Origin: Raoultibacter massiliensis
Lineage (GTDB): Bacteria > Actinomycetota > Coriobacteriia > Coriobacteriales > Eggerthellaceae
Assembly (NCBI RefSeq): GCF_900199545.1
Contig: NZ_LT962671.1
Span: 1,858,964 to 1,922,963, forward strand
Length of the DNA stretch: 64,000 bases
Direction of reading: 5' to 3'
Shown: positions 1 through 31,118 of the stretch, piece after piece
Numbering within the stretch: position 1 is the first letter of the stretch
How the letters are laid out: every line of letters begins with the position of its first letter
Program-made: the position numbers and the translations under genes
Notes under the pieces: model-generated
What the model was told of the DNA's origin: nothing
The model's database searches: none
Seen by the model: only the letters and a program-made list of their open reading frames with translations

Positions 1-1214
1 TCCGTAGGCTTCAAAGGCAGGAACTTGAGGCCGAGGAGCAGGATGAGAGCGCCGAGGCCGAACACGCCGAGCGCGATCCCGAACTCGATCGGGGTCGGCC
101 AGTAGACCATGCCCTGGTAGGCGCCCGCCATGCCGGACTCCCAGTTCGTGACCGTCATGGAGGTTACAGGACCGGGCAGATCGATGTTGACGACCTGGAA
201 GCCGCCGACCAGAAGCTGGACGCGCTTGCAGAAGATCGCGACGATCACGGCGAGCGAAGCAACGACGATCAGCTCGTTCCTGCGCAGCGCGGGCACGAAC
301 GCCACGACCGCAGCGAATACGCAGAGCACGACCTCCGCCCAGAAGAACGGAGCGAGCGGACCGGAGGTGAGCATCGCGACCACTTCGGCGCCGGAACCTC
401 CCGGGAAGCCCTCGGTGAGAAGGTCGCAGCCGAAGAAGTACAGGTCGACGAGGACGAACGCGCCGAGCATCTTGAGCATCTTCACGACGTTCGACTGGTC
501 GAGTTCCATGTAGCCCGCGCGGCGCAGCGCGATCACCACGACGAGCACGAGCGCGGTGCCGCACACGAGCGCCGACGAGACGAACCAGGGCGCCATGAGC
601 GCGGTGTGCCACATCTCGCGACCCGCATTCAGGGCGAAGATCCACGCCGTCACGCTGTGCACGAGCACGGCGGTAACGAGCGCGATGACCGAGACGACGC
701 GGAGCGCCTTGGCGGACACCTTGCCCGCCTCGTGGCGAAGCGTCGCCCAGAGGTAGACGACCGACAGAACCAGGTAGGTCGCGATAACCGCGATGTCCCA
801 CATGAGCGGGGAGCTCAGGTTCGAGTATGCGAAGAGCTCCCACAGGCGCAGGGGCTGGCCGAGGTCTACGACCACGAAGCCGATGGCGAGCACCGTGCAG
901 CAGATCGAGGTCCACACGGCCACCTTCGAGATGCCGCCGAAGCCCGGAAGCCCGAGCGCCTTGGGCACCGACGAGATGATGAGGCCGCCCGCGGACAGGC
1001 CCACGAGGAACATGAACATGGTGATGTAGAGCCCCCACGAGTCGAGGTTGCGCATGCCGGTCTGAACCATGCCGCCCGAAAGCTGCACTCCCCAGAGGAC
1101 GAGCCCCGCGACGGTCACGATCGCCGCGATGACGATGGCGACGTTGATGCCCTTGCCCCCGAATTTGGCAGCAGGAGCCGATGACGGCCTTGCCGCCCCT
1201 ATGTTCTCAGACAT
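1..1214 (-). CDS. NrfD-type quinone-interacting membrane subunit, operon A (3' end cut by window)
   Basis: Reading the minus strand from an ATG at 1214 gives MSENIGAARPS followed by a polytopic membrane protein that runs off the window edge after about 404 codons. Motifs typical of NrfD/PsrC/DmsC subunits are visible: SWGLYITMFMFLVGLSAGG near the N-terminus, then VDLGQPLRLWEL and HSVTAWIFALNAGREMWHTA. These subunits anchor the catalytic and ferredoxin subunits at the membrane and exchange electrons with the quinone pool. A good ribosome site (AAAAGGAG) lies just before the ATG, 16 bases after the stop of the ferredoxin gene, so it is the third gene of operon A. It is a diverged paralogue of the NrfD subunits of operons B and C and shares no near-identical tract with them. 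A chaperone gene probably follows outside the window, by analogy with B and C. Confidence 0.9.
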   Translation of the reverse strand, partial: MSENIGAARPSSAPAAKFGGKGINVAIVIAAIVTVAGLVLWGVQLSGGMVQTGMRNLDSWGLYITMFMFLVGLSAGGLIISSVPKALGLPGFGGISKVAVWTSICCTVLAIGFVVVDLGQPLRLWELFAYSNLSSPLMWDIAVIATYLVLSVVYLWATLRHEAGKVSAKALRVVSVIALVTAVLVHSVTAWIFALNAGREMWHTALMAPWFVSSALVCGTALVLVVVIALRRAGYMELDQSNVVKMLKMLGAFVLVDLYFFGCDLLTEGFPGGSGAEVVAMLTSGPLAPFFWAEVVLCVFAAVVAFVPALRRNELIVVASLAVIVAIFCKRVQLLVGGFQVVNIDLPGPVTSMTVTNWESGMAGAYQGMVYWPTPIEFGIALGVFGLGALILLLGLKFLPLKPT

Positions 1215-1230: not shown

Positions 1231-1875
1231 CTAGACGAGGTAGTAGACGGACGGGTTGGTGCCCTCGCTTGTCAGAAGCTGCTTATATTCCCGGGAGGCA
1301 ATAAGCTTCGATACCTCCGATTCGGGGTCGTTGAGATCGCCGAAGTAGCGGATCCTAGCCGTACACGCCTCGACGCAAGCGGGCTGAAGACCCTTAGCAA
1401 GCCTATGCCAGCACATCGTGCACTTTTCGACCACATGCTTCTGGTGCGCGGGAACATCGGCATCGCCCATCGCATGATCGATGAAACTCCGCGGCTCCTC
1501 CCAGTTGAACGAGCGCACGCCCGTGTAGGGGCAGGCGGCCATGCACATGCGGCAGCCGATGCACTTGTCGTAATCCTGGCGCACGACGCCGGTCTCGGGA
1601 TCCTTGTACGTTGCGCCTACAGGGCATACCTTCACGCAGGCGGGATTATCGCAATGCTGGCAGGCAACCGTAATGTAGTCCATCCTTAGCGTGGGATCCT
1701 CCCCCGACTTCGGATATTTTCCAGAAGGCGTATTCTGATTTACGCCGCCGTCCGTAAGAACCCTATTCCAGAAAATACCTCGGGGTACGTTGTTCTCCAC
1801 TTTGCACGAAGTCATACACGCAGAGCATCCGACGCAGTTCTTTGCGTCGATGACAAAGCCAAGCCTCTCGCTCAT
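1231..1875 (-). CDS. Four-cluster ferredoxin electron-transfer subunit (DmsB/PsrB/NrfC type), operon A
   Basis: This 214-residue protein has four cysteine groups: CVGCSACMTSC near residue 16, CQHCDNPACVKVCP, CIGCRMCMAACP, and CTMC followed by a distant CVEAC. They are expected to hold four [4Fe-4S] clusters that pass electrons between the catalytic molybdenum subunit and the NrfD membrane subunit. It has no signal peptide, which fits export by hitchhiking on the TAT signal of its partner. Its ATG overlaps the stop of the catalytic gene as ATGA, so translation is probably coupled. The family is shared by DMSO, thiosulfate, polysulfide and nitrite reductases, so it does not reveal the substrate. 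Confidence 0.94.
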   Translation of the reverse strand: MSERLGFVIDAKNCVGCSACMTSCKVENNVPRGIFWNRVLTDGGVNQNTPSGKYPKSGEDPTLRMDYITVACQHCDNPACVKVCPVGATYKDPETGVVRQDYDKCIGCRMCMAACPYTGVRSFNWEEPRSFIDHAMGDADVPAHQKHVVEKCTMCWHRLAKGLQPACVEACTARIRYFGDLNDPESEVSKLIASREYKQLLTSEGTNPSVYYLV

Positions 1876-4286
1876 CGGTTCTCGCCCTCCTCATTCCAGG
1901 GTCGGATGTCGCATATGCAGTCAGGAAAATTGTTGGCATGGGTCCATAAGCTGAAATCCGGATTAAGCAACTCGCTCCAGCTTCCTGCTTTATGCTGGCT
2001 AATTTGCCATCCTTTGGGATAAGCTACGGTTCCCGGGCGAATCCCCTCTGAATAGACGGCCCTGCCGACGGCATGGCCCCGGTCGTTGAACGCTTCGACG
2101 TAGCCGCCGTCCTCCACACCACGGGCTTGAGCGTCGATCGGGTTGACGTAAAGAATAGGCTCGGGATCGATTTCGTGCAGAATGCCAACGGTGAAATACT
2201 GGGAATGGACGCGAAAGCGACCGCGGAAACTCAAAAACGAGAGGGGATACTCTTTCATTCTTTCGTTCTCGTACCAATTTTCCGAAGGCTCTTCCCAGCG
2301 TATCATCAAATGCTCGCGCTGCACCTCTTCCTCCGTAGGAACCCTCGTGCCCACACGACCGAAATTCGCCTTAGGTGTCTCTGTATAGAACTCAGCCCTA
2401 CCGGTAGCCGTGCCAAATTTTTCGGGGTATGCAATGTGCGTTTCCTTGGGAGCCCAACGAAGAAAGCCCTTTTCTTTCAAATTCTCCCAAGAGTATCCCA
2501 TCTCCAAATTAGACGGAACCTCGAAAAGACGCCTGCAAAGCTCTTCGTCATCTTCTTCAAAGTAGCCGCCCAATCCCATCTTGTCCGCAATAATGCGCAC
2601 AATGTCGCAGTCCGACTTTGCCTCAAAAGGAGGATCAATCGCCTTCTCGTTATAGCTCATGCTAAACGTACAGCTCGCAGTAGTAAAATCTTCGCACTCG
2701 AAATGCTGTGCCGCAGGCAGTACCAAATCGGCAAATCGCGCCGTGTCGGTCATCGCCGAATCGGCCACGACAATGTAATCCAAGCTGGGGAATATGATAT
2801 CCCTCCAATCGCTTACATTAGGCGCCGTGTTCACGGGATTGGCAAAGTAAAAATACGCCATCTTTACCGGGAAATCTTGACCCATCAGTTTGCTTCCCTG
2901 AGCAATGTTTACCCAATCGATTGTCGAAAACGACATCGTCGTGTTAGCAACTGGAGACCCATACGTGTAGTCGTATCCCATGTAAAATGACCACAACATC
3001 CCATAGGTCGAGCCAGGTTTTCCGTAGTTTCCGCACAGAAAGCTCGTCATGAACCCCGCCGCCGCCATCTGCGCTCCATTTTGGTAGTTCAACGGACCGT
3101 ATCCAAGAATGGCATACACCGAACCAGACAAATAATAATCAACCAACTCATTAATTGTTTCTACGGGAATATCCGTCTTTTCGGACACGATCTCAGGCGT
3201 CCATTCGGCAATAATATCCATTTGAAGCTTCAATGCGGTAGAGCACTTTACCCCATCGACAACATACTCGGCAAACAACTCCGGTTTGGCAGCCTCATCG
3301 GCGGCTTTAAGGCTATCGCCCTCAAGAACAAGGCAATTTCCAGCATCGTCGCGCAAAAACGCCCCGTCGTCTTCGCGTACAAGAAATGGAGCGACCGTGC
3401 GATTGGCCATGAATTCCTCGTCTATGGCGCCTCTTTCCATCATGATATTCATCATGCCGAAATAGAGCAGGGTATCCGATCCAGGCCGAATGGATATCCA
3501 GCGATCAGCCTTCGATGCGATGACGGTGTAGCTTGGGTCGACGACAACGATTTTCGTTCCATTGGCTTGCGCTTTTTTCAAATGATGCCAGTGGTGGACC
3601 TGGGCATCAGTGATATTCGCACCATAGACAATAATAGTGTCGGCGTTCACGGCATCCGTGAGCTCATTTGCATCATTGCCATCTCCGATAATCTTTCCAG
3701 CGTAGCCAATAGCGATGTCATTGCAGGGCTGTGCCGTCGAAACACCGAGTAAACACTTCAGACGATTATACATAGCGGTCACCGCAGTACCGTAGTTGCC
3801 CGTCAAGCTGCAAAAAGCAACCGCCTGCTTTCCGTATTTGTCTTGGGTTTCGGTAATTTTGGTCGCAATCTCATCGATCGCCTCATCCCACGAAACCCTC
3901 TCCCATTCCCCTGCTCCGCGATCAGTACCCTCCACTCGGCGCATGGGGTATTTGAGGCGTTCCTCGTTATAGATGCGCTCAACATGAGTAAGGCCGCGCT
4001 GGCAAATGCGTGAATACTCCGGGAACTCGGGCAACTCGCGCTTTGATGTCTTCACAACCTTACCATCGCGAACGTGTACGTTTATGTTGCAGTAGCCGAA
4101 GCAATTAGGGCGGCAAACGCAACGAGCGAGGTGCTCGCCCTCAGCTTCAACCTGCCCTGGGTTATATTCAGCTAAAGCGGTCATCGAGCCCGCACCTGTT
4201 AGCGCGGCTGCTCCCGTCACTGCAGCCGTTGTCCTGAGAAAGCTTCTACGAGTGAGCCCGCCCTGCGGGCTGTTCGCTCCTGACAT
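1872..4286 (-). CDS. TAT-exported molybdopterin oxidoreductase, catalytic subunit, operon A
   Basis: An 804-residue DMSO-reductase-superfamily enzyme. The start is set at 4286, where a strong AGGAGG site precedes MSGANSPQGG; an in-frame start at 4331 would add 15 residues and lacks such a site. A twin-arginine signal (TRRSFLRTTAAV) is followed by a hydrophobic stretch ending at TALA. The [4Fe-4S] motif near residue 55 reads CVCRPNCFGYC, with a fourth Cys at SRICQRG. Molybdopterin-family blocks follow: WERVSWDEAIDEIA, VVVDPSYT, SIRPGSDTLLYFGM, and a C-terminal molydopterin-dinucleotide-binding region (VNPIDAQARGVEDGG, SYPKGWQ-like). It should act outside the membrane as a terminal reductase or dehydrogenase. 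The substrate cannot be read from the sequence. It is clearly more distant from the catalytic subunits B and C than they are from each other. Operator-like repeats lie in the 310 bases upstream. Confidence 0.93.
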   Translation of the reverse strand: MSGANSPQGGLTRRSFLRTTAAVTGAAALTGAGSMTALAEYNPGQVEAEGEHLARCVCRPNCFGYCNINVHVRDGKVVKTSKRELPEFPEYSRICQRGLTHVERIYNEERLKYPMRRVEGTDRGAGEWERVSWDEAIDEIATKITETQDKYGKQAVAFCSLTGNYGTAVTAMYNRLKCLLGVSTAQPCNDIAIGYAGKIIGDGNDANELTDAVNADTIIVYGANITDAQVHHWHHLKKAQANGTKIVVVDPSYTVIASKADRWISIRPGSDTLLYFGMMNIMMERGAIDEEFMANRTVAPFLVREDDGAFLRDDAGNCLVLEGDSLKAADEAAKPELFAEYVVDGVKCSTALKLQMDIIAEWTPEIVSEKTDIPVETINELVDYYLSGSVYAILGYGPLNYQNGAQMAAAGFMTSFLCGNYGKPGSTYGMLWSFYMGYDYTYGSPVANTTMSFSTIDWVNIAQGSKLMGQDFPVKMAYFYFANPVNTAPNVSDWRDIIFPSLDYIVVADSAMTDTARFADLVLPAAQHFECEDFTTASCTFSMSYNEKAIDPPFEAKSDCDIVRIIADKMGLGGYFEEDDEELCRRLFEVPSNLEMGYSWENLKEKGFLRWAPKETHIAYPEKFGTATGRAEFYTETPKANFGRVGTRVPTEEEVQREHLMIRWEEPSENWYENERMKEYPLSFLSFRGRFRVHSQYFTVGILHEIDPEPILYVNPIDAQARGVEDGGYVEAFNDRGHAVGRAVYSEGIRPGTVAYPKGWQISQHKAGSWSELLNPDFSLWTHANNFPDCICDIRPWNEEGENR

Positions 4287-4399
4287 TTCTCCTCCTAAAT
4301 ACTCGTCAAGACATCCCCTCGCATTGCCCATGCTTTCCGAGCGATTGCAACCTTTCGGGACATCCCCACTGTTTCCATGTCAGAATCGGCCGATTCTTT

Positions 4400-4463
4400 C
4401 TTGTCATAGTCTGCCATACGTCACTATGATTATCAATAGAATTGTATGACAGACTATGACAAG
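4400..4463. promoter_or_regulatory. Long inverted repeat, candidate GntR operator upstream of molybdoenzyme A
   Basis: Two 20-bp arms at 4400-4419 and 4444-4463 are reverse complements with one mismatch, separated by 24 AT-rich bases. Each arm holds two half-sites about one helical turn apart: TGTCATA plus GCCATAC on the left, TATGACA twice on the right. It lies about 115-180 bases before the catalytic gene of operon A. The same half-site recurs near the other two loci, which makes it a candidate binding site for the adjacent YtrA-type GntR regulator. The regulator assignment is inference. Confidence 0.7.
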
Positions 4464-4530
4464 AGTTATTCTATTTTGTAGATAATAGGAATTTACCTGC
4501 GGTTTTGTGTTTTCGCTTTGAAACGACCGC

Positions 4531-4548
4531 TATGACAGGCGTATGACA
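4531..4548. promoter_or_regulatory. Direct repeat of TATGACA between slipin and molybdoenzyme A
   Basis: TATGACA occurs at 4531-4537 and again at 4542-4548, an 11-base period. These add to the four half-sites at 4400-4463. The rest of the 4287-4596 interval is AT-rich around 4420-4500 and shows no open reading frame or terminator that I can support. Confidence 0.5.
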
Positions 4549-4596: not shown

Positions 4597-5583
4597 CTAC
4601 TCGCCCCGCACGGCGCGCTCGACGGCCTCAGCGGCCTTCTCGCCCGAATCGCTCGTGAAACCCTCGGAGAACGCGCTCGGGATGACGAGCGTGCCGCCCG
4701 ACTTCTTCACGCTCTCGTAAGCGAGGTGCATGGTGCGCAGCTTCATCGCCTCGGGGTTGTCCTTGTACGCCTCCGACGCGTCGGCGAGCATGTCGGAGAT
4801 GTCCTTCTCGGCTTCGGCGAGCACCATGCGCGCGTTCTTCTCGCGCTCGGCGATGGCTTCAAGCGACATGGCTTCCTGCAGCTCTTTGGGAACCACGATG
4901 TCGCGGACTTCCACGTCGATGATGTCGATGCCCCACGGGCTCAGCTTCTCCTCGATGGCCACCTTCAGCTCCTCGTCGAGCTGATCGCGGCGCATGGCCA
5001 CCTCGGCCACCGTCGCGCGGCCGATCGCCTTGCGCATGGCGGTCTGAGCGACCCACGCCACAGCCGCCGAATAATCCTCGACCTCAACCGTCGCCTTCTT
5101 AGGGCTGAACACCATCCAGAACAGCACCGCATCCACGTTGATGGGAACCAGATCGCTCGTCAGAGTTTCTTCGGCGCCGAAGTACGTGGCCGATACGCGC
5201 TGATCGATTCGCAGCGTATAGAACTCGATGATAGGCCAGGTGAACACGATGCCTGGCCCCGCCACGCGGTTGAACTTGCCGAACCGAAGCACGACTGCCT
5301 TCTCCCATTCGAGCACGATGTGAACCGAGTTCGCAGCAAGCCACCCAACGACCACGGCAACGATGAGCGCCGCAAGGCTCACCCCGCCCAAACCGTACTC
5401 CGCAATCGCGAGCACAATGCCGAACGCCGCCAGGAACACGACGATCGCGAACACGACCGCCCCGTTGCGCGACGCCTTCCGCTTACCCGTTTCGAACCGC
5501 GGATCGCTTACCGCGGAGCCCCGCGCGCCTGCGATCGGGGGTTCCTGCACGATATCGGTGTCGTAATGCTTTCTGCGATGCAT
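4597..5583 (-). CDS. Slipin (stomatin/prohibitin, SPFH) membrane protein, cassette A
   Basis: This 328-residue protein has a basic N-terminal tail, a long hydrophobic segment at roughly residues 40-95, then a Band-7/SPFH domain. Diagnostic stretches are EWEKAVVLRFGKFNRVAGPG, RIDQRVSATYFGAEE, DVEVRDIVVPKELQEAM and an AEREKNARMVLAEAEKD coiled-coil-like tail. Slipins oligomerise in membranes and scaffold or protect partner proteins; many are paired with an NfeD protein, but none is present here. The start is supported by AAGGAGG just upstream. It lies 31 bases after the GntR gene and is the last gene of the cassette before the molybdoenzyme operon. Two paralogues occupy the same place in loci B and C, which argues for a role linked to these enzymes. 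Confidence 0.92.
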   Translation of the reverse strand: MHRRKHYDTDIVQEPPIAGARGSAVSDPRFETGKRKASRNGAVVFAIVVFLAAFGIVLAIAEYGLGGVSLAALIVAVVVGWLAANSVHIVLEWEKAVVLRFGKFNRVAGPGIVFTWPIIEFYTLRIDQRVSATYFGAEETLTSDLVPINVDAVLFWMVFSPKKATVEVEDYSAAVAWVAQTAMRKAIGRATVAEVAMRRDQLDEELKVAIEEKLSPWGIDIIDVEVRDIVVPKELQEAMSLEAIAEREKNARMVLAEAEKDISDMLADASEAYKDNPEAMKLRTMHLAYESVKKSGGTLVIPSAFSEGFTSDSGEKAAEAVERAVRGE

Positions 5584-5614
5584 CGTCTGCCTCCTTCACG
5601 GGATGCGATCCCGA

Positions 5615-6034
5615 CTATTCCCTCGCCCGTTTCGCCTTTTCGTTGTTCAAGCACTCGGTGAACTGCACTTCTATATCTTCGATCGACATGCCCAGCTCGA
5701 AGCATCGTTTGAGGTACTCGACCGTCACGATCTCGGCGGTCGAGGAGATGCTCACGCCTGGCTTGTCGCTCACGTCGCACACGAACGCGCCCTGGCGGCG
5801 CTTCGACTGGATGTAGCCGTCCTGCTCGAGGCTCATGTACACCTTGCTCACCGTGTTGTAGTTGACCTCGACATCGGCCGCCAGCCCGCGCACAGTGGGC
5901 AGCTGGTCGCCCGGCATGTAGTACCCCGACGTGATGAGGTAAATGAACCGGTTCTTCAGCTGCAACCAGATGGGAATGCTGCTCTTCTCGTCGATCTCGA
6001 ACAGCGCGGCGTTCGTGTTCTCCCTATCTCTCAA
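5615..6034 (-). CDS. Short GntR-family (YtrA-type) transcriptional regulator, cassette A
   Basis: A 139-residue regulator with the N-terminal winged helix of GntR proteins: IPIWLQLKNRFIYLI, PGDQLPTVRGLA, VNYNTVSKVYMSLEQDGYI. The region after the DNA-binding domain is only about 60 residues, as in the YtrA subfamily, which usually dimerises through short helices. No internal ATG exists before the domain, so a TTG start at 6034 is used, preceded by AGGG. It sits 21 bases after the NrfD-like gene and is probably co-transcribed with it and the slipin. Palindromes with TATGACA cores upstream of the cassette (7128-7162) and upstream of operon A (4400-4463) are its likely targets, by inference. Confidence 0.92.
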   Translation of the reverse strand: MRDRENTNAALFEIDEKSSIPIWLQLKNRFIYLITSGYYMPGDQLPTVRGLAADVEVNYNTVSKVYMSLEQDGYIQSKRRQGAFVCDVSDKPGVSISSTAEIVTVEYLKRCFELGMSIEDIEVQFTECLNNEKAKRARE

Positions 6035-6055
6035 GCGCGATACCCTGCTTCCTCA

Positions 6056-7012
6056 TCAGCTCAGACCTTCGGTCAGATCGATCGTCTCTTCCATTGCGGG
6101 CTCGAGCACCAAATCGCGGTGCACACCCGCTTCCACCATGCCGTATCGAAGGCAGAACGCCCCGATCAGCACCAAAACCGCACTCACAGCTAGCGCCGCA
6201 TGCAGATCAACCCGCCCTCGAATGCCCACGACCTCGACGACGAGCGGCGCCGCAAGCCCGCAGGCTGCGAACCCGAGCCACCACACAAGTGCCAGCTCTC
6301 CCTGCGTGAGGATCGCAAACGACTCCTGCACCCCGAAATGCCCGCTTTGCCCCGCAAGCACGACGAAACATGCAGCGCAAACGGCTTCGAGCACGATAGC
6401 TGCCGCATCCGCGCAAACGAGCACGCGAAGTACGCGGACGCAAGCACGGTCGCATTCCACGAAGAACGACACCGCGAACAAAAGCGCGATGCCGCTCGAT
6501 GCCGACGACAGGACGAACAGCGCGGGCACCAGCGGCGACGCCCAAAACGCCACGCCGCCGACCGACTGGAGCAGAAGCCCCGTGTAGAGCATCACCACCA
6601 ACGCGACCGCAACCGCAATCGCCTCAAGCGCCACCACGACCGAGCGCTTGACGAACGACAGGTACATGAACCGCACGAGCACAAGGGCCGCACCAAGCAC
6701 GCCGAGCGCGGCGAGCGCATACGAGCCGAGCGTCATGACCGACATCGTCGGGCTCAAAAACAAAGCGAGCGCCCTATCGATACGGCCGAGATCGAGCAGC
6801 AAACTCACGATGCCCACCGCAAGCGCGACGAAGCCCGCAAGAAACCCGTAATCGACGATCCGTCCTAGGGGGCGCACCGAAGGTCCGGGGCCATACGACG
6901 ACGTACCGAACGGCTGCTTCACCGCCAAAAGGTCGATGAGCGAGCACGCAGCAATCGCTCCCGCCCCAGCTCCGCCGAGGAAAAGGTAGAACACCGCAAA
7001 TGCGCCAAACAT
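6056..7012 (-). CDS. Solitary NrfD-like polytopic membrane protein, cassette A
   Basis: A 318-residue multi-spanning protein beginning MFGAFAVFYLFLGGAGAGA. The start at 7012 has GGAGGG upstream and aligns exactly with the start of the cassette B paralogue; an upstream in-frame start at 7120 would add 36 residues without a comparable site. The opening FLGGAGAG helix, LDLGRIDRAL and the MVMLYTGLLLQSV helix resemble NrfD/DmsC quinone-reactive subunits. No ferredoxin or catalytic gene lies next to it inside the cassette, unlike the NrfD of the molybdoenzyme operon. It is the first gene of the NrfD-like/GntR/slipin cassette. A role as quinone or redox sensor, or as an alternative anchor, is speculative. 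Confidence 0.85.
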   Translation of the reverse strand: MFGAFAVFYLFLGGAGAGAIAACSLIDLLAVKQPFGTSSYGPGPSVRPLGRIVDYGFLAGFVALAVGIVSLLLDLGRIDRALALFLSPTMSVMTLGSYALAALGVLGAALVLVRFMYLSFVKRSVVVALEAIAVAVALVVMLYTGLLLQSVGGVAFWASPLVPALFVLSSASSGIALLFAVSFFVECDRACVRVLRVLVCADAAAIVLEAVCAACFVVLAGQSGHFGVQESFAILTQGELALVWWLGFAACGLAAPLVVEVVGIRGRVDLHAALAVSAVLVLIGAFCLRYGMVEAGVHRDLVLEPAMEETIDLTEGLS

Positions 7013-7127
7013 GCCTTCCCTCCAAACGAGACCGTGTATAAGCCCGGACCGACCAGAATGGCACAAGCAGCTCACACCATCCTGCAAATACCTTTCTGCA
7101 TCTGAACCAGTATGCCACAAAAAGAAG

Positions 7128-7162
7128 CTCCCGTATATGACACGGTGTCATATACGGGAGCA
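7128..7162. promoter_or_regulatory. Perfect 17-bp-arm palindrome upstream of cassette A
   Basis: The arms at 7128-7144 and 7146-7162 are exact reverse complements separated by one base, with the core ATATGACAC/GTGTCATAT. It lies about 115 bases before the NrfD-like start on the minus strand. The symmetry and TATGACA core are typical of a dimeric GntR operator. No U-tract follows on the minus strand, so a terminator is less likely. A near half-site (TATGCCA) lies at 7112-7118. Confidence 0.75.
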
Positions 7163-9570: not shown

Positions 9571-10266
9571 TTAATCCCGATCTCGCGCCAACCCCACATG
9601 CCACATCAGCACTCTTTCCGCAAGCCCGAGCACCGCAACGAAATAGCCGTCGGGGTACGCTCGGGCAACGCGATCTCGAAAAGCGCCGATCCAACCCAGA
9701 GGATGTCGCTCGATGAAGTCAAGAGCGGCCCGAACGTCCGAGTCCGCCGGATCGGGCGCGCCGACGGCCTCGCCATCGATTTCATCCGACCCGTACTCGA
9801 CGGATGAACCCAAAGAGGCGCAGCGCGTCGAAAGATAGAGCAGCTCGATCCCCATATGGTCTTCGTACTGGTGGTTCTCGTTGCTCAGCTCAAGACCCGC
9901 CTCGCGAAGCAGGCGCTTCATCTCAAACGTCGGCTCGCCGAATCCAACAGTCACGTTTTCCGATCGATACATCGTCTCCCAAGGCGGTGCCGCAGGGGAA
10001 GGCGGTCCAATGAACAGGCGCGTGTACTCGACCGACACGCGCTCAACAGGATCCTTGCCCCCAGCCGCGCAGGCGACCGAGGCTTCGGCATAGCGTCTGC
10101 AGCCGGCAACGGCTTCGGCAATCCCATCGTTCCCGAAGTCGGGAAAGGATCCCCAAAACCCGGGGTCAATGCCCACCGTAGCAGTTTGCGTCATTGGCTT
10201 GAGCAGCGAGTTGCCGATAAAACCATACACGTCGGCCAAATCGCTCCAGGGAATGTTGGCTGCCAT
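9571..10266 (-). CDS. TorD/DmsD-like molybdoenzyme chaperone, operon B
   Basis: A 231-residue protein starting MAANIPWSDLADVYGFIG, with AAGGAG before the ATG at 10266. Features of the TorD/NarJ family are visible: VSVEYTRLFIGPPSPAAPPWETMY, EATFEMKRLLREAGLEL-like helices and NENHQYEDHMGIELLYLS. These proteins bind the TAT signal and help insert the cofactor into their cognate catalytic subunit before export. It is the last gene of operon B, 118 bases after the NrfD gene. The C-terminal half differs considerably from the operon C chaperone, which fits pairing with different catalytic partners. Confidence 0.9.
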   Translation of the reverse strand: MAANIPWSDLADVYGFIGNSLLKPMTQTATVGIDPGFWGSFPDFGNDGIAEAVAGCRRYAEASVACAAGGKDPVERVSVEYTRLFIGPPSPAAPPWETMYRSENVTVGFGEPTFEMKRLLREAGLELSNENHQYEDHMGIELLYLSTRCASLGSSVEYGSDEIDGEAVGAPDPADSDVRAALDFIERHPLGWIGAFRDRVARAYPDGYFVAVLGLAERVLMWHVGLARDRD

Positions 10267-10344
10267 TGCCGTCTCCTTTACCCGCAGGCGCCGCCATCGG
10301 CCCCCACGATCGACCGCCAACTGGCGGATGGTCGCATGAAGTGC

Positions 10345-10374
10345 GGCTGCCTGCACAACACAGCACAGGCAGCC
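10345..10374 (-). other. Intercistronic hairpin between the NrfD and chaperone genes of operon B
   Basis: GGCTGCCTG at 10345-10353 pairs perfectly with CAGGCAGCC at 10366-10374. There is no U-tract, so an mRNA-stabilising or processing hairpin is more likely than a terminator. It may lower chaperone expression relative to the upstream genes. Confidence 0.45.
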
Positions 10375-10384
10375 TGAACGAATA

Positions 10385-11602
10385 CTATGCCGCTTCGCCA
10401 GCCAGCCCGCTTTCGGCCGGCCCGGCACCCGCACCAGCACGGTTGCCGGGAAGCAGCTTCTTGCAAAGGAGCATGAACGCCAACACACCCAGCGACACGG
10501 CCCCGATGACCACGACGATCTCGACCCACGTGGGCGCATACGCGCTAGCAAGGGCCCATGCGTCGGTGCCCGCAGCATGGGCGGCCGCAGATGATCCCGA
10601 GATCACGCCGGGCGCACCCGCCACGTTGAACTCGACGAACGAGGCGAGCAAAAGCCACACGCGCTTGCAGAACACGCCGACGACCACGCAGACGCTCGCC
10701 GCAGCAACAAGCCCCATGCGAGCGCGGTTCTTCGCGAACAGGAGGATCGCAAGCGGGATCAGGATGCCCACGATGATCTCGAACCAGAAGAACGGAGCGG
10801 TTGCACCCGTCGCCATAATGGACAGCGTCTCGGCGCCGGCAGCTCCGGGATAAGCCATCGTGAGCACCTCGCAGCCGATGAGGAAACCGTCGATGGCGAT
10901 GCAGGTCGCGAGCAGGCCCGCGAGGTTCGTCAGGAGTTTCTTATCGGTCTTAAAAAGGCCCGATTTGTTCAGCCCCATGAGCGAGAGCAGCAGCGCGAGA
11001 CCCGAATCCATAGCTGACACCACGAACAGCGGCGCCATGATGGCCGAGTACCAGCCCTCCTTGGCGATCTCGAGCCCGAAGATCCAGGCGGTCACGCTGT
11101 GCACGAGGATGGCGACGGGCAGCGCGAAGCGGGATACCACGGCCACGCGGTCCTGCGCCCCGGGCTTCCTCGAGGTCATGAACGCGAGGTACACGACGTT
11201 GATGGCGAGGTACAGCGTGATCACGCAGATGTCCCAGAACAGCGGCGAGGCCGGGTTGGGCGAGACGACGATCCGCCACACCCTCTGGATGCCGCCCAGG
11301 TCGATGAGGACGAACATGCCCGCCACGCAGATGCACACCGTGGAGAGGATGACGGCCGGAAGCGCCACCTTCTTGTACTCCTTCACATGGAACACGCTCG
11401 CCGACGAGGCCACGATGAGGCCCCCCGCCGAGAGCCCCACGAAGAACATGAAGCAGGTGATGTAGAGGCCCCACGACGTGCCGTTGCTCATGCCCGTCAC
11501 GCCGAGGCCGTTCATGAGCTGGTAGATCCAGGCGGCGACACCCGCCGCCGTCAGCGCCGCGAGCACGCCCGCGGCAGCTTTGAATTTAGCTGAAGTTTGC
11601 AT
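10385..11602 (-). CDS. NrfD-type quinone-interacting membrane subunit, operon B
   Basis: A 405-residue polytopic protein beginning MQTSAKFKAAAG; an AAGGGG site lies eight bases before the ATG at 11602, and a GTG three codons upstream is less likely. NrfD motifs include SWGLYITCFMFFVGLSAGG, VLIDLGGIQRVW, PLFWDICVITLYLAINVVY and HSVTAWIFGLEIAKEGW. It should link the ferredoxin subunit to menaquinone. It lies 12 bases after the ferredoxin gene. Bases 11031-11545 are almost identical to 25672-26186 in the operon C paralogue, whereas the C-terminal half has diverged; this suggests recent recombination between the operons. Confidence 0.93.
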   Translation of the reverse strand: MQTSAKFKAAAGVLAALTAAGVAAWIYQLMNGLGVTGMSNGTSWGLYITCFMFFVGLSAGGLIVASSASVFHVKEYKKVALPAVILSTVCICVAGMFVLIDLGGIQRVWRIVVSPNPASPLFWDICVITLYLAINVVYLAFMTSRKPGAQDRVAVVSRFALPVAILVHSVTAWIFGLEIAKEGWYSAIMAPLFVVSAMDSGLALLLSLMGLNKSGLFKTDKKLLTNLAGLLATCIAIDGFLIGCEVLTMAYPGAAGAETLSIMATGATAPFFWFEIIVGILIPLAILLFAKNRARMGLVAAASVCVVVGVFCKRVWLLLASFVEFNVAGAPGVISGSSAAAHAAGTDAWALASAYAPTWVEIVVVIGAVSLGVLAFMLLCKKLLPGNRAGAGAGPAESGLAGEAA

Positions 11603-11614
11603 TGTGCGCACCCC

Positions 11615-12232
11615 TTAGTTGAAGTAATGGACTTGCGGACGCGTGCCCTGCTCTTCCAAGAGCACGCCGGCCTTCTTTTCGCGGATGAGCTTCGAGATCT
11701 CGCTCTCGGGATCATCGAGATCGCCGAATGTGCGGGCTTTTGTGGGGCAGCACACGACGCACATGGGCTCTTTTCCTAGGTCGGTGCGCTCCTTGCACAT
11801 CGTGCACTTCTCGGCCACGCCCTTAGGGCGCACCGGCACGTCTTTGTCCCCGTAGTTGAAGTCGGGGTCGCGCCTGGGCTCCTCCCAGTTGAACACGCGG
11901 GCGTTGTAGGGGCAGGCGGCCATGCACATGCGGCACCCGATGCACTTGTCGTAGTCTATCTCCACGCGCCCCATCTCGTCCTTGTAGGTGGCGCCCGTCG
12001 GGCACACCTTCAGGCAGGCCGGGTTCTCGCAGTGCTGGCAGGCGATGGGCAGGTACGTGCGGGTAAGGTTCGGATACTCCCCGAGGGCTCCGTCGACAAC
12101 GTCGCATCCTTCGGTCAGCACCCGGTTCCAGAGCATTCCCATCGGCACGTTGTTTTGCATCTTGCAAGCATTTGCGCAGGTGTGGCACCCAATGCAGCGA
12201 TCCAGGTTGATCGCGATCCCAAGTTTCGTCAT
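11615..12232 (-). CDS. Four-cluster ferredoxin electron-transfer subunit, operon B
   Basis: A 205-residue protein (MTKLGIAINLDRC) with cysteine groups CIGCHTCANAC, CQHCENPACLKVCP, CIGCRMCMAACP and CTMC plus CVVCCP, expected to hold four [4Fe-4S] clusters. The ATG at 12232 follows GGTGAG and makes it the same length as the operon C subunit; a GTG at 12241 is the alternative. It starts ten bases after the catalytic gene's stop codon. Bases 11781-12049 are nearly identical to 26423-26691 in operon C, with about four differences by eye. Confidence 0.94.
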   Translation of the reverse strand: MTKLGIAINLDRCIGCHTCANACKMQNNVPMGMLWNRVLTEGCDVVDGALGEYPNLTRTYLPIACQHCENPACLKVCPTGATYKDEMGRVEIDYDKCIGCRMCMAACPYNARVFNWEEPRRDPDFNYGDKDVPVRPKGVAEKCTMCKERTDLGKEPMCVVCCPTKARTFGDLDDPESEISKLIREKKAGVLLEEQGTRPQVHYFN

Positions 12233-12241
12233 TGCGCTCAC

Positions 12242-14653
12242 CTACGCTTTCTTCACTTCGACAAGGGTGTCGTTAAAAGGAATAACCGGGCCGAACACGA
12301 GCATGTCGCCTCGTTCGATGGTCGTATCGTTCGTAACGTCTTGAATGTTTCCGCCGTCCATGTACTTCGACCACATGCCTTCGTATATGCGAGCGATGCC
12401 GGGACGAACCGATGCGTTGACGCGAACGGGGCAAGAGAAGCTACCGCGATCGTTGAACACAGTTACCGCATCGCCGTCTGTAAGCGACCGCGTTTCCATG
12501 TCCGCCGGGTTGAGTTCGAGATACGGTGTATAATGCTGCTGGATCCACGTCGCATCGCAGAATTGCGAGTGGATGTGGAAGCGGGTCCTCGCCTGAACGA
12601 ACTGGAGCGGATAGGTGTCCATCCGGGAATTACCGTCGAACAGCTCGAGGTTCTCCTCCCAGGTCGGCAACGCCTGACCGAAGTCGACCAGATCGCTGTA
12701 GTACAAATCCAGCTTGCCTGAAGGCGTGCTGTACTGCTGGTCAGCATACCCGATGCGGGGCTCCTCGATGCCCGGCAGCGGAAGAACTCCCTGGTTGCTA
12801 ACGAGATCGGAAAGCTTCACGCCCCGCAGGGTCTCGTCTTCCGACTCCTCGATCTGAAAGCGAACGTAGTCCTCAGCCGTCTTCGGAAGCGCGCCTTCGA
12901 GCCCCAAGCTTTTCGCAATCTCGTACTGAATCTGGAAATCCGTCTTGCTCTCGAACAGCGGGTCGATCACTTTCTCGCGAAGGCGAAGATGATTGTACGC
13001 GCACTTCACGCCGCCGATCTCCTCGTCGCACTCGAACTTCGTGCAAGCAGGCAGCACGATGTCGGCGTACTGAACGCTATCTGAATTGAATATCTCGATT
13101 CCGAGGATGAAATCTACGGTATCGAGCCATTCACGCGTCAAATTCATGTTGGCGAAATAGGTTTGGAAGGTGTTGCCGATGGAGATGACCGCATGCGTGT
13201 TGTTCGGCTCGGTGCGGAACCTGTACGACGGCATCTCAGACGGAGCGGCGATCATATCCTCAGGCAGCGGCCACATCGCAAGCTCGGCTCCATACCCCGA
13301 ACCGCCGAGGTAGTTGCCCATGCCGCGCCCCGTAGAGCCAACGTTGCCGGTCAGCGCGCCGAGCAGCGCAAGCGCGTGCCCGGTTATGTCAGCATTGGAA
13401 TACTTGTCGCTTCCGCCATATCCTACGGCAAGCGAAGCCGGACCGCCCGTCGCATACTGATCAGCCAGCGATTCGATGGTAGCCTCGTCGATCCCCGTCT
13501 TTTCCGCAGCCCAGGAAACGGTGTGCTGTTTCTGGTTTGCAAACAGCTGTTGGAAGACCGGCTCGTAAACGACACCGTCAACGGTGAAAGAGCCTTCGAG
13601 GACAGGTTCGACACCCTCGTCGAGGTAGCTCTTCACACTCTGCGTCGCACCATCCCATACCATATAGGGATTTTCTTCCCCCGTTTCAGGCTCCCCTGCT
13701 TCCGAGATGATCTCATCATGGTCGCGAAGCACGGTTCCGTCTTCGACGGAAACGAGGAACGGCATCGTCGTGTTCGCTTTCAGGAAACCTTCGTCGTACA
13801 GCTTTTCATCGAGAATACGGCTCACCATGCCGAGGAAAAGCGCCGCGTCGGTACCAGGCTTTATGGGTATCCAGCGGTGCGCCTTGGAAGCCGTCGTCGA
13901 ATAATGCGGATCGACGACAACGATCTCGCAACCCGCCTCTTTCGCATCGAAGAACGCCGTAGCCTGCATCATGGACGACTCGAGCGGATTGGAACTCGTG
14001 ATGATCAGGAGCTTGGAGTTCTTCCAGTCGCGTATTTCGTTCGTTGCGGCACCGGCTGTGATGTCGCCGAGCGCTGGATCGAATCCGTTTCCGACCCCGA
14101 TATCGAGACCGTCTCCCAGACCACTCGTGGAAGCTCCGAGCACGTCCACCAGCAGCGGATACTCAGGCGCTCCCGAGCATGCTACATGAACGCTTGCATT
14201 GCCGTATTTCGAGCGAACCTCAGACAGTTTCTCTCCGACCGTTTTCATGGCTTCGTCCCAGGTGATCGACTCGAATTCTCCCGATCCGCGCTCTCCCACG
14301 CGCTTGAGCGGAGTCTGGAGTCGCTCGATGCCGTAGACATGCTGCACCTCGGACAGTCCCTTCAGACAGCACTGCGCATAGTACGGATCGAGGGCATCGT
14401 TCGGCTGGATGAGGCTGATGCGCCCATCCCTCACCGTGCATGCCAAACTGCAATTGCCCATACACGCCTCATGGTGATACGTATAAGCGACGTGCTCCTC
14501 AGATTCGGCATGCGCTTTTGCAGGCGCGAGCCAGTCATCCGCAGTAACCATGCCCGCAGCACCCGCAAGGCCCAACGCCCCCGCAGCGGCGCCCGAGACC
14601 TTCAGAAAGCCCCTTCGCGTAAGCTTGCCATGCGAGCCTTTAGCTTCTGACAT
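12242..14653 (-). CDS. TAT-exported molybdopterin oxidoreductase, catalytic subunit, operon B
   Basis: An 803-residue DMSO-reductase-superfamily enzyme. The N-terminus has a twin-arginine signal (TRRGFLKVSGAAAGALG) ending around KAHAES, so it is exported. The cluster motif is CMGNCSLAC followed by a fourth Cys at AQCCLKG. Core blocks include ITWDEAMKTVGEKL, VVVDPHYSTTASKAHRWIP, KPGTDAALFLGM, YADIVLPACTKFE and a C-terminal dinucleotide-binding region (LELNPADMETRSLTDGD, VFNDRGSF). It is a close paralogue of the operon C subunit, sharing the same KRVGERGSGEF stretch and the C-terminal FNDTLVEVKKA. The ribosome site AGGAGG sits in the same context at all three catalytic genes. The substrate is unknown. 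Confidence 0.93.
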   Translation of the reverse strand: MSEAKGSHGKLTRRGFLKVSGAAAGALGLAGAAGMVTADDWLAPAKAHAESEEHVAYTYHHEACMGNCSLACTVRDGRISLIQPNDALDPYYAQCCLKGLSEVQHVYGIERLQTPLKRVGERGSGEFESITWDEAMKTVGEKLSEVRSKYGNASVHVACSGAPEYPLLVDVLGASTSGLGDGLDIGVGNGFDPALGDITAGAATNEIRDWKNSKLLIITSSNPLESSMMQATAFFDAKEAGCEIVVVDPHYSTTASKAHRWIPIKPGTDAALFLGMVSRILDEKLYDEGFLKANTTMPFLVSVEDGTVLRDHDEIISEAGEPETGEENPYMVWDGATQSVKSYLDEGVEPVLEGSFTVDGVVYEPVFQQLFANQKQHTVSWAAEKTGIDEATIESLADQYATGGPASLAVGYGGSDKYSNADITGHALALLGALTGNVGSTGRGMGNYLGGSGYGAELAMWPLPEDMIAAPSEMPSYRFRTEPNNTHAVISIGNTFQTYFANMNLTREWLDTVDFILGIEIFNSDSVQYADIVLPACTKFECDEEIGGVKCAYNHLRLREKVIDPLFESKTDFQIQYEIAKSLGLEGALPKTAEDYVRFQIEESEDETLRGVKLSDLVSNQGVLPLPGIEEPRIGYADQQYSTPSGKLDLYYSDLVDFGQALPTWEENLELFDGNSRMDTYPLQFVQARTRFHIHSQFCDATWIQQHYTPYLELNPADMETRSLTDGDAVTVFNDRGSFSCPVRVNASVRPGIARIYEGMWSKYMDGGNIQDVTNDTTIERGDMLVFGPVIPFNDTLVEVKKA

Positions 14654-14795: not shown

Positions 14796-14834
14796 AATAA
14801 TCATATGACAATCAATAATTGTCATATGATTATT
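14796..14834. promoter_or_regulatory. Perfect palindrome upstream of molybdoenzyme B
   Basis: Exact 17-bp arms lie at 14796-14812 and 14818-14834 with a 5-base spacer; the core is TCATATGACA/TGTCATATGA. It lies about 145 bases before the catalytic gene, in a 283-base AT-rich interval after the slipin gene. It matches the TATGACA half-site of loci A and C and is the likely operator for the adjacent GntR protein. The rest of the interval 14654-14936 shows nothing else I can support. Confidence 0.72.
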
Positions 14835-14936: not shown

Positions 14937-15953
14937 CTACTTCTCGCCCATGACGCCCTTCATGCTGTCGGGCAAAACGTCGCCGAATCCCTCCGAGAAC
15001 GAACTCGGCACCACTACGGTTCCCCCAGTCTCACGCACGCTTTCGTAGAGCAGATGCATGGCACGCAAACGCAGCGCGGCGTCGTTTTTCGCATAGGAGT
15101 CGCCCATGTCGTCCATCATCTCGCAGATGTCCTGCTCGGCCTCCATGAGGATGATGCGAGCCTTCTTGCGCTGCTCGGCCTGCGCCTCGAGCGACATGAC
15201 CTCCTGAAGTTCCTTGGGCAGCAAGATATCGCGCACCTCGACCGACAGGATCGTGATGCCCCACGGCGCCACCTTCTCTTCAAGTATGCGCTTCAGCTCG
15301 CGGTCGAGCTGCTCGCGGCGAATCGCCACCTCGGCAACGCCCGCGCGCCCGATCGCATCGCGCAGCGCCGTCTGCGCCGCCAATTCGACGGTCCGCGTGA
15401 AATCCCCCACCTCGGTGCACGCCGCCTTCGCATCCCACACCATCCAAAACAAAACGGCGTTCACATCGAGGGGCACGAGATCGGCCGTAAGAGTTTCTTC
15501 CGCACCGAACGATGTGGCGCGCACGCGCCCGTCGACGCGCATGGTATTCTGCTCGATTATGGGCATCGTCCAAAAAAGCCCGGGGCCCGAAACGCGGTTG
15601 AACTTGCCGAACCTGAGCACCACGACCTTTTCCCACTGCTGAGCTATGTGCACCGAAGACATCACAAGCAAAGCCACCACGAGCGCCGAAAGCAGCGACG
15701 CCACACCGACCTGCGCCGTCGCCACCCAAAAAGCGCCAATTACCGCGCAAAACGCCACCAAGAAGATAACGGCCGAAAACAATACCACACCTGCATTCGA
15801 CGCACGCTCGCCCATGACTTCGGTACTAGCTTCGGGAACAACCTGAAATCGCTGCTTTCGCCTTGCGCGACTCGGCCCTCCCTCGCAGGATCGCGCGGCC
15901 GCTTGCCCCGCAGAGAACCCTGCCGCATACACGTTGTCTTTTCCGATTCCCAT
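14937..15953 (-). CDS. Slipin (stomatin/prohibitin, SPFH) membrane protein, cassette B
   Basis: A 338-residue paralogue of the cassette A slipin. It has a longer basic N-terminal tail (RSCEGGPSRARRKQRF), hydrophobic helices at about residues 55-100, and a Band-7 domain with QQWEKVVVLRFGKFNRVSGPG, GAEETLTADLVPLDVNAVLF and VEVRDILLPKELQEVMSLEAQAEQRKKARI. It starts six bases after the GntR stop, so co-transcription and possibly coupling are likely. It is followed by the palindrome and the operon B catalytic gene. As in A and C, no NfeD partner is nearby. Confidence 0.92.
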   Translation of the reverse strand: MGIGKDNVYAAGFSAGQAAARSCEGGPSRARRKQRFQVVPEASTEVMGERASNAGVVLFSAVIFLVAFCAVIGAFWVATAQVGVASLLSALVVALLVMSSVHIAQQWEKVVVLRFGKFNRVSGPGLFWTMPIIEQNTMRVDGRVRATSFGAEETLTADLVPLDVNAVLFWMVWDAKAACTEVGDFTRTVELAAQTALRDAIGRAGVAEVAIRREQLDRELKRILEEKVAPWGITILSVEVRDILLPKELQEVMSLEAQAEQRKKARIILMEAEQDICEMMDDMGDSYAKNDAALRLRAMHLLYESVRETGGTVVVPSSFSEGFGDVLPDSMKGVMGEK

Positions 15954-15959
15954 GGCGGC

Positions 15960-16445
15960 CTACCTTTCGCCCTCGCGCTTCGCGCGCTTTACACCAACAT
16001 CGATCGTCACTATTCGACCCGAGCCTTCGGGCAACGGCGCCTCGCTCGCATCCGCTTGCCTCTCGGCAACTTTGATCTGCTTGATCTTCTTGGACATGCA
16101 TTTCTCGATATCGTCGAGAGACAAACCGAGATCGCGACATGCAGCCACGCAATCATCCATGAGGCGCTCGATCTCTTTCGTGTATTCCTCGTCCATTTCG
16201 GCATCGAGATCGCGAACGAACACACCCCGGCCGCGCGTCGATTCCAGATACCCATCGGATACCAGGCTCAAGTACGCCTTGTTCACCGTGTTGTAATTGA
16301 TCGATATGTCCGATGCCAGCCCGCGCACCGTAGGCAATTGATCGCCCGGCTTGAAATACCCCGAATTGATGAGGTATATCAGCCGCTGGCGCAATTGCAC
16401 CCACAAAGGCACATCGCTTGTCGTATCAACCTCAAATGGAAACAT
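15960..16445 (-). CDS. Short GntR-family (YtrA-type) transcriptional regulator, cassette B
   Basis: A 161-residue regulator with VPLWVQLRQRLIYLINSGYF, PGDQLPTVRGLASDI and INYNTVNKAYLSLVSDGYL, the winged-helix domain of GntR proteins. The C-terminal part is longer and more acidic-basic than in the A and C paralogues (a helical EYTKEIERLMDDCVAACRDLG segment and a tail ending KRAKREGER). The ATG follows AAGGTGAG. It is separated from the NrfD-like gene by 141 bases that hold a tandem repeat, so it may have its own promoter. Likely target: the palindrome at 14796-14834. Confidence 0.92.
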   Translation of the reverse strand: MFPFEVDTTSDVPLWVQLRQRLIYLINSGYFKPGDQLPTVRGLASDISINYNTVNKAYLSLVSDGYLESTRGRGVFVRDLDAEMDEEYTKEIERLMDDCVAACRDLGLSLDDIEKCMSKKIKQIKVAERQADASEAPLPEGSGRIVTIDVGVKRAKREGER

Positions 16446-17555: not shown

Positions 17556-17805
17556 AGGCCCGTCCCCTCATGGCGCGATCGTCAGATAGTCGTGCGGCTT
17601 TCTTGCCCTTTCTCGCGGCCGGCCGCATCGCAAGATTCGTACGACCGCCAGCGGTATCCGATTATCATAAGACAATAACCCCGCCCGTTGTAGGGGAATC
17701 AGAAGGAAAACGCATTCGGAGCGAGAAAAGGCGCCTACCCGCGCCTCCCCCCCCCGAGCAGCCCCCGCCCGCAAAAGCGCGCCGGCTTCGAAACCGAAAA
17801 CCGCG

Positions 17806-24989: not shown

Positions 24990-25016
24990 CGAATCCTCCT
25001 TCGGTTTCCGCAATCG

Positions 25017-29341: not shown

Positions 29342-29615
29342 TGTCATATAGTAAGTAATATAATACTATTTCGCTTGGCAAAACCGCGCGCCGTATCCCA
29401 TCCACACATTCAAAGACCGGCCTAATCTTCTTTTGTCATATTATCATATTGTAATAGTTCAATATAGCAATTTAACTATTCTAATTTAAAGATAATCAAG
29501 AGCTGCCATGCAATGCCGCCTTATCAGGTTGTTTACTGGTTGCACCACAAAAAACGGTGGGAGAAATCGCTTGATTCAGCATTTCTCCCACCGTTTTGAT
29601 CTCTTGTCATATAGT
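29342..29615. promoter_or_regulatory. AT-rich control region of molybdoenzyme C with dispersed TGTCATA half-sites
   Basis: TGTCATATAGT occurs at 29342-29352 and again at 29605-29615; TGTCATA lies at 29434-29440 and a variant TATCATA at 29442-29448. The first copy is followed by a loosely symmetrical ACTATT at 29364. The half-site matches loci A and B, but here there is no perfect palindrome. The stretch 29400-29510 is strikingly AT-rich for this genome. The promoter of operon C should lie here. Confidence 0.5.
29551..29597 (-). terminator. Strong terminator after the cassette C slipin
   Basis: Perfect 17-bp arms at 29551-29567 and 29581-29597 flank a 13-base loop; on the minus strand the stem ends in a run of T. 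It should end the cassette transcript, which implies that operon C is transcribed separately from the cassette. Confidence 0.85.
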
Positions 29616-31098: not shown

Positions 31099-31118
31099 TG
31101 CCATATAAAAGTATGACA
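31099..31118. promoter_or_regulatory. Inverted TGCCATA/TATGACA pair upstream of GntR C
   Basis: TGCCATA (31099-31105) and TATGACA (31112-31118) are inverted with one mismatch across a 6-base spacer. It abuts the stop of the NrfD-like gene. It resembles the left arm of the locus A operator, which also holds a CCATAC variant. Confidence 0.5.

Follow-up and report, generated by a model that had tools for sequence, protein, structure and literature searches.

Why do a gene for an NrfD-like membrane protein, a short GntR regulator gene and a slipin gene stand together, three times over, in front of exported molybdoenzymes? The question was raised by a 64-kb stretch of Raoultibacter massiliensis DNA (contig NZ_LT962671.1; the whole stretch is called the window below), in which three such cassettes were present, all on the minus strand and all in the order NrfD-like, GntR, slipin. 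Eggerthellaceae possess many molybdoenzymes, and for some of these the conversion of drugs, of compounds from the diet or of steroids has been reported. The module formed by the three genes is real and widespread. Its best explanation, to which we give slightly better than an even chance with all three of its steps, would be a repeated local regulatory cassette with a membrane-fed signal. The half that makes GntR a local regulator is well supported by sequence; the other half, in which the NrfD-like protein and the slipin would sense the quinone pool, is a reasonable inference.

The cassette and its conservation

The cassettes of the window consisted of the following genes, and the Band_7, GntR and NrfD models of Pfam each matched above their own cut-off in all three copies.

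6056..7120, minus strand, copy A NrfD-like membrane protein (PF03916, above the Pfam cut-off)
5615..6034, minus strand, copy A short YtrA-type GntR regulator (PF00392)
4597..5583, minus strand, copy A slipin (PF01145)
16587..17555, minus strand, copy B NrfD-like protein (PF03916)
15960..16445, minus strand, copy B GntR (PF00392)
14937..15953, minus strand, copy B slipin (PF01145; 98% identical to P0121, 'slipin family protein [Raoultibacter massiliensis]')
31120..32028, minus strand, copy C NrfD-like protein (PF03916, 130.4 bits)
30644..31039, minus strand, copy C GntR (PF00392)
29691..30629, minus strand, copy C slipin (PF01145)

The NrfD gene of copy A probably starts near 7012 (MFGAF..., by comparison with P0006) rather than at the TTG at 7120. 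Each slipin gene was followed on the same strand, after 266 nt (A), 284 nt (B) or 388 nt (C), by a molybdopterin oxidoreductase (Mo) gene with a twin-arginine leader (TRRSFL or TRRGFL), then by an iron-sulfur (FeS) gene and an NrfD gene; a TorD-like gene was additionally present in operons B and C. The Pfam model for twin-arginine translocation matched the operon A enzyme only below its cut-off. Open reading frames (ORFs), Pfam matches and gene order thus bore out the preliminary description of this DNA, which had placed three cassettes at these positions, each upstream of an exported molybdoenzyme operon. The copies have diverged considerably, copies B and C sharing with copy A 54 and 49% identity in the slipin, 39 and 32% in the NrfD-like protein, 44 and 47% in GntR, and 33 and 29% in the Mo subunit.

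With the three window slipins as queries, at least 553 relatives were confirmed, and the best 80 loci, all carrying Coriobacteriia names, were fetched, so the sample is biased to near relatives. They held 83 modules, which gave 86 with the three of the window. Genes were recognised with profiles built from the window genes (for NrfD also from its relatives), a Mo gene was counted up to 3 kb downstream or 5 kb upstream of the slipin, and gene gaps are approximate since ORFs were called from the longest start. GntR was directly upstream of the slipin in 84 of the 86 modules, NrfD was no further than 1.3 kb away in 77, and 74 had a same-strand Mo gene (60 within 3 kb downstream, 14 upstream only). 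The triplet is therefore kept beside molybdoenzymes in related genomes, the opposite of what the preliminary description had named as evidence against it. Among the 12 modules lacking a same-strand Mo gene, five had one on the opposite strand (L035, L045, L073, L076, L079), one had its Mo operon slightly past the 5-kb limit (L004), and six were close to where a contig or fetched stretch ends (the first modules of L002 and L052, and L009, L018, L036 and L058). Gene orders, with N for NrfD, R for GntR and S for slipin, were N-R-S in 62, T-N-R-S in 8, R-S in 10, N-T-R-S in 2 plus one longer run so starting, R-S-N in 2 and S alone in 1; the order N-S-R was seen in L122 of Eggerthella lenta.

Searches by genus gave 68 matches, of which 35 further loci were fetched, 5 from Gordonibacter (genus of genome G001) and 30 from Eggerthella (genus of G009), and all three genes were present in 34 of the 35. 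Among 149 genomes drawn from the phylum, module-type slipins occurred in four, with whole matches of at least 355 bits; one partial match in G001 reached 197 bits, and every other slipin listed was at or below 193. Four Eggerthella genomes carried 6, 10, 11 and 11 copies, and the other module-bearing genomes 1 to 9.

Chance neighbourhood might be suspected in genomes so rich in molybdoenzymes, as E. lenta (genome G159) alone gave 36 matches to PF00384. Nevertheless five of its six cassettes had a same-strand Mo gene at most 1 kb after the slipin, for which a simple model (assuming 34 Mo genes with a reach of 3 kb) gave a probability of about 3e-9, and this alternative is given hardly any weight.

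One of these E. lenta cassettes, L120, reads NrfD-GntR-slipin-Mo-FeS-FdhD. The reported cluster for steroid 21-dehydroxylation (work of McCurry et al., according to PMC11835702) comprises Elen_2454 (SPFH), Elen_2453 (Mo), Elen_2452 (FeS) and Elen_2451 (FdhD), and the gene run of L120 matches it by content and order, the mapping being made without locus tags. Elen_2454, an SPFH band 7 protein beside Mo, FeS and FdhD genes, resembles the cassette slipin in this respect. GntR and NrfD genes beyond the SPFH gene, and a site, go unmentioned in the available part of that account, whereas they are present at L120. In the literature searched, Elen_2453 and Elen_2454 appeared in PMC11835702 only, and Elen_2455 and Elen_2456 were not found. 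The GntR gene beside the L120 slipin would be the likely regulator of this reported cluster.

Some loci deviated from the common arrangement. A single run Mo-FeS-TorD-NrfD-GntR-slipin, with the cassette-type NrfD as the only NrfD found, was present in L011-L014, L016, L017, L019 and L021, and is possibly the ancestral form. A DmsC-like membrane gene lay between slipin and Mo in L022, L025, L026, L031 and L054; one of three scanned was above the Pfam DmsC cut-off and two had no match. The GntRs of the latter loci were without the common site described below and may use another. In L125 (G159:826000-837000) a GntR-slipin pair stood immediately behind a hydantoinase-like gene, with neither NrfD nor Mo next to it, and FeS and NrfD genes were located 3 kb further on.

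Predicted operators and the GntR regulator

Many cassettes were preceded by a DNA site that recurred in front of their enzyme operons. Half-sites of the TATGACA type occurred in the gaps of all three window copies, before the copy B NrfD as a variant only. The word TATGACA was found 17 times in the window (chance mean 2.65 in 100 shuffles, largest 7), and 14 of the 17 lay in cassette or pre-Mo gaps. Two fuller forms could be distinguished, an inverted pair TATGACA-N3-TGTCATA and a 12-bp palindrome, TRTCMTAKGAYA. The predicted sites of the window were as follows.

7136..7152, no strand, copy A site before NrfD, TATGACA-N3-TGTCATA
4402..4548, no strand, copy A, five clustered TATGACA half-sites (4402, 4445, 4455, 4531, 4542) ahead of the Mo operon
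17663..17674, no strand, copy B site ahead of NrfD, reading TGTCTTATGATA on the coding strand, one mismatch to TRTCMTAKGAYA
14799..14831, no strand, copy B, a pair of sites ahead of the Mo operon (14799-14810 and 14820-14831) at a distance of 21 bp, one mismatch each
32066..32072, no strand, copy C half-site before NrfD
31112..31118, no strand, copy C half-site between NrfD and GntR
29342..29611, no strand, copy C, half-sites ahead of the Mo operon (29342, 29434, 29605)

The same distribution was observed over the 86 modules. TATGACA reached 2.28/kb in slipin-Mo gaps (73 in 31,982 nt) and 0.77/kb before the cassette (23 in 29,882 nt), with 3 in the 12,670 nt between NrfD and GntR and none in slipin genes; elsewhere it occurred at 0.10/kb (129 in 1,328,533 nt, the window being counted once per module). 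When 7-mers were counted without a preset motif, TATGACA topped the excess over background in regulatory regions and was present in 55 of the 86 modules; when counted per GntR class, other words ranked first. The exact 12-mer TRTCMTAKGAYA was found 35 times in regulatory regions and twice in 1,145,525 nt elsewhere. Consecutive 12-mers (at most one mismatch) before Mo were spaced by 21 bp in 20 of 34 cases, so two dimers could occupy one face of the helix.

Five genomes distinct from those of the 80 loci, of the same genera, were then scanned (G007, G008, G158-G160). Exact 60-mers sampled every 60 nt were shared with the 80 loci by none of the 9 loci of G158, the 9 of G160 and the 3 of G008, by 3 of the 12 loci of G159 (L109, L121, L124) and by L087, the sole locus of G007; the loci are relatives of the discovery loci, not copies. 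In these genomes 14 of 15 exact 12-mers lay at a cassette or a Mo operon after one, and the fifteenth (L129), inside an unrelated ORF, was rejected as a target. The inverted pair TATGACA-N3..9-TGTCATA was placed by position at cassettes or their Mo operons in nine of nine cases, with none for the reversed-pattern control. In G001-G005, a group of genomes overlapping those used for discovery, all seven 12-mers and five of seven inverted pairs were at cassettes, with 3 and 0 for the respective controls; the two other pairs (L081 and L082, spacers 7 and 6) were in or at long ORFs, and were rejected as targets and left uncounted. In L126 (5650-14662) and L127 (5829-14865) one cassette stood before two tandem Mo operons, and a site was present before the cassette and before both operons, so the site goes with the promoter and not with the slipin. 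At L120, TATGACA half-sites were found before the Mo gene and at the GntR start.

The TATGACA-N3-TGTCATA form was common to L001-L006 and E. lenta. After it, in L001, L002, L004, L005, L006 and E. lenta, came a TTTTRTGNNATACTG-like stretch, which resembles an extended -10 element, so binding directly before it could block the promoter. Promoter-like matches in general were few and little above chance, and were not relied on.

Which protein would read these sites? The form of the predicted site follows the recognition-helix class of GntR. With class NTVNKAYL (copy B) the 12-mer was present in 24 of 25 cases and the N3 pair in none, while with class NTVSKVYM (copy A) the 12-mer was present in none of eight and the N3 pair in seven (Fisher 6e-7 for the 12-mer and 2e-6 for the N3 pair, ignoring shared ancestry). 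The three GntRs are 139, 161 and 131 aa long (A, B, C) and apart from GntR matched only helix-turn-helix families below threshold; PF00392 was above cut-off also in the L120 GntR, and the profile of the three copies gave 6sbs, 3neu and 4ham as relatives in the Protein Data Bank (PDB). Membership in the YtrA type is indicated by the GntR winged helix-turn-helix, the short protein and the operon with membrane-protein genes (slipin in 84 and NrfD in 77 of 86); the palindromes predicted at its own promoter were conserved in part. Bacillus YtrA is another GntR of the YtrA subfamily. The preliminary description had proposed a membrane sensor of quinone/redox or envelope state that switches its own respiratory enzyme. 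This is borne out in part: the shared predicted sites and the conserved neighbourhood speak for a single recurring module linked to molybdoenzymes, in which the short GntR is the likely regulator of the enzyme beside it; sensing of quinone or envelope state by NrfD and slipin would be a candidate role.

The sites might instead be read by another regulator, with GntR merely nearby. A candidate would be a LuxR protein with 12 transmembrane segments (12-TM), as such proteins activate other E. lenta reductases (PMC9734109). No LuxR match was found in the cassette proteins by family scans of the window cassettes, which are thus not of the 12-TM LuxR type. The sites also stand before the cassette, in the ten genomes scanned they were almost restricted to cassettes, and their form changes with the GntR class, so a foreign reader is considered very improbable.

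One Cys was conserved in the C-terminal part of GntR (98 of 119) and one in the slipin (75 of 86). This could mean a thiol link between the two; as the copy A slipin is without this Cys, the idea is kept as a lead only.

The NrfD-like protein and the slipin

The cassette NrfD matched PF03916 and, by fold comparison, has the NrfD-type helix bundle of ActC and PsrC; it thus shares Pfam family and fold with NrfD/PsrC/ActC subunits. A PDB sequence search with it gave no match, and the profile of operon NrfDs matched ActC chains but not PsrC, so fold comparison was used instead of a one-by-one alignment of the quinone residues. Its polar core is conserved, with Y179, D110, R116, S205 and R325, candidate quinone-binding residues, invariant in 45 sequences. 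In a tree, cassette and operon NrfDs fell on opposite sides of one branch, and the window cassettes themselves contain no FeS gene, in both of which the cassette NrfD differs from the enzyme subunits.

In the 32 modules having both a cassette and an operon NrfD, divergence was correlated within NrfD-GntR-slipin (r 0.74-0.91) and within Mo-FeS-operon NrfD (0.70-0.89), and across the two groups at 0.20-0.44. Given the slipin distance, the partial r of the cassette NrfD was -0.01 with Mo and -0.02 with FeS. Such separate divergence from Mo, FeS and operon NrfD, where present, indicates that the cassette NrfD goes with the switch and not with the enzyme complex.

The profile of the three slipins gave best E-values of about 1e-41 for stomatin, 3e-26 for QmcA, 1e-12 to 1e-11 for HflC/HflK and 1e-4 for flotillin, so the cassette slipins are nearer by sequence to stomatin than to HflK/C or flotillin. 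HflK and HflC were the top NCBIfam matches of the three slipins, which gives a hint of a quality-control or FtsH-modulating (HflK/C-like) protein for these membrane enzymes; these matches were nevertheless far too weak (in copy A 78 bits, the cut-off being 159.4) and stomatin was by far the nearest solved relative, so such a role appears quite improbable.

In the regulatory explanation, the YtrA-type GntR would bind the palindromes predicted before its own cassette and the adjacent molybdoenzyme operon or operons, and by analogy with YtrA proteins would repress both. NrfD, GntR and slipin have stayed together and diverged jointly, apart from the Mo, FeS and NrfD subunits of the enzyme where these are present, as the comparison shows. 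The NrfD, with its quinone-subunit fold, may then report on turnover or on the quinone/redox state. The slipin may gather NrfD and perhaps GntR at the membrane; the operators would be freed, and cassette and enzyme made. A signal through membrane partners is proposed because GntR has no recognised ligand domain.

Several points count against this explanation. As to the sites, GntRs of class NTVSKAYM were without 12-mer, N3 pair or TATGACA in eight of eight cases, in 17 of the 86 modules the scanned regions contained no TA[TG]GA[CT]A half-site, and three of the six E. lenta cassettes had neither TATGACA nor the 12-mer (at most one mismatch). The enrichment of the 12-mer was measured on the same loci that defined TRTCMTAKGAYA, the reversed 12-mer also occurred three times in each five-genome set, and the test genomes belong to the same genera, so orthologous sites were counted again. 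The palindrome upstream of copy A (7127-7161, minus strand) is terminator-like, with a 16-pair stem and then a T-run; the relatives shown retain its core, with a four-T run instead of five. As to the membrane partners, the divergence correlations carry shared ancestry, and the partial r of the cassette NrfD with the operon NrfD was 0.13. An operon-type NrfD was not found in 25 of the 60 downstream Mo operons, some of which are truncated at the end of a contig, so the cassette NrfD may have an anchor role there.

NrfD and slipin could instead be effectors, an alternative quinone-facing anchor and a membrane scaffold for the molybdoenzyme, with GntR answering some cytoplasmic or membrane signal. 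The ActC/PsrC fold and polar core kept by the cassette NrfD would suit this role, as would the 25 operons just mentioned and the eight single runs in which it is the sole NrfD. On the other side, an own NrfD is already present in 35 of the 60 downstream operons and a DmsC-like gene stands before Mo in others, in the 32 modules with both NrfDs the divergence of the cassette NrfD follows neither Mo nor FeS after correction for slipin distance, and the E. lenta cluster was expressed as Elen_2451-2454, by mapping without the neighbouring NrfD (PMC11835702). The effector role is therefore rated possible and rather unlikely.

Taken to its full extent, the regulatory explanation would describe a new membrane redox switch, in which a respiratory quinone-binding subunit has left an enzyme to become a sensor and, scaffolded by the slipin, governs a GntR repressor that has no ligand of its own. 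A genome has 1 to 11 copies, and each would be wired to its own reductase, one of them to the steroid 21-dehydroxylation cluster. We advance this only tentatively, as falling well short of an even chance. If true, expression of the 21-dehydroxylation cluster would be tied to the hydrogen-fed quinone pool. The module supplies a predicted operator that could be tested in vitro, and a slipin for which a few likely partners can be named.

Direct fusions gave no help. The NrfD-GntR fusion P0092 was rejected as proof of contact, as the end of its NrfD part is unlike the family before the GntR start and by eye looks frameshifted; P0118, an NrfD with a thioredoxin domain, looks like a chimera. No annotated slipin-GntR fusion was present among the 120 listed of 3615 slipin relatives.

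Known systems and the enzyme operons

The triplet and its operator were not found in the literature searched, which largely excludes subscription papers and is no proof of absence; GntR, SPFH and NrfD were not mentioned in the main texts of four papers on Eggerthella and Gordonibacter or of the LuxR paper PMC9734109. The view of the preliminary description that no system of this composition has been described could be kept to this extent, with the restriction that an SPFH protein beside a Mo enzyme had already been noted (Elen_2454, PMC11835702).

Another SPFH protein, Cac6, lies beside the cgr cluster and was proposed to interact with reductases (PMC5953540), and like the module slipin it is an SPFH protein by reductases. 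No module-type slipin was found near cgr2 (2.96 Mb) in G159 at E <= 1e-40, so by this test Cac6 is not a module slipin.

Among the nearest known regulators is YtrASa of Sulfolobus, a repressor of its own operon and of a single further locus for a membrane protein; it acts through a semi-palindrome of 14 bp accompanied by extra half-sites (PMC6746942). The module resembles it in the short GntR, the operon with a membrane-protein gene, the palindrome predicted at its own promoter, the predicted second target and the extra half-sites, and differs in its partners NrfD and slipin, in the molybdoenzyme operon as putative second target and in the many copies per genome.

The 12-TM LuxR proteins DadR, HcdR and CadR activate E. 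lenta reductases (PMC9734109). Like the module as proposed here, they act locally on reductases of these bacteria and are linked to the membrane. They are one-protein activators answering the substrate, whereas the module has a separate GntR and two membrane proteins and is probably repressing. Choice of the molybdoenzyme to be expressed was found described for the 12-TM LuxR cases only, and the module would be a second, widespread candidate system.

The enzyme operons following the cassettes contained the genes below.

1872..4331, minus strand, operon A molybdopterin oxidoreductase with twin-arginine leader (PF00384, PF01568, PF04879)
1231..1875, minus strand, operon A FeS subunit (PF13247)
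1..1214, minus strand, operon A own NrfD, an open frame cut by the left edge of the window, which groups with operon NrfDs in the tree
12242..14653, minus strand, operon B molybdopterin oxidoreductase (PF00384)
11615..12241, minus strand, operon B FeS subunit (PF13247)
10385..11611, minus strand, operon B own NrfD (PF03916, 148.5 bits)
9571..10578, minus strand, operon B TorD-like chaperone, start probably later (PF02613)
26883..29303, minus strand, operon C molybdopterin oxidoreductase (PF00384)
26257..26874, minus strand, operon C FeS subunit (PF13247)
25017..26243, minus strand, operon C own NrfD (PF03916)
24342..25013, minus strand, operon C TorD-like chaperone (PF02613)

Further genes of the window were also observed. 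A large DUF6541 protein (7423-9513, plus strand) is divergent from cassette A and shares the same intergenic region, and a flavoprotein reductase with FMN-bind and FAD_binding_2 domains (34055-35857, plus strand) is encoded near a MerR-type gene at 33150-33968.

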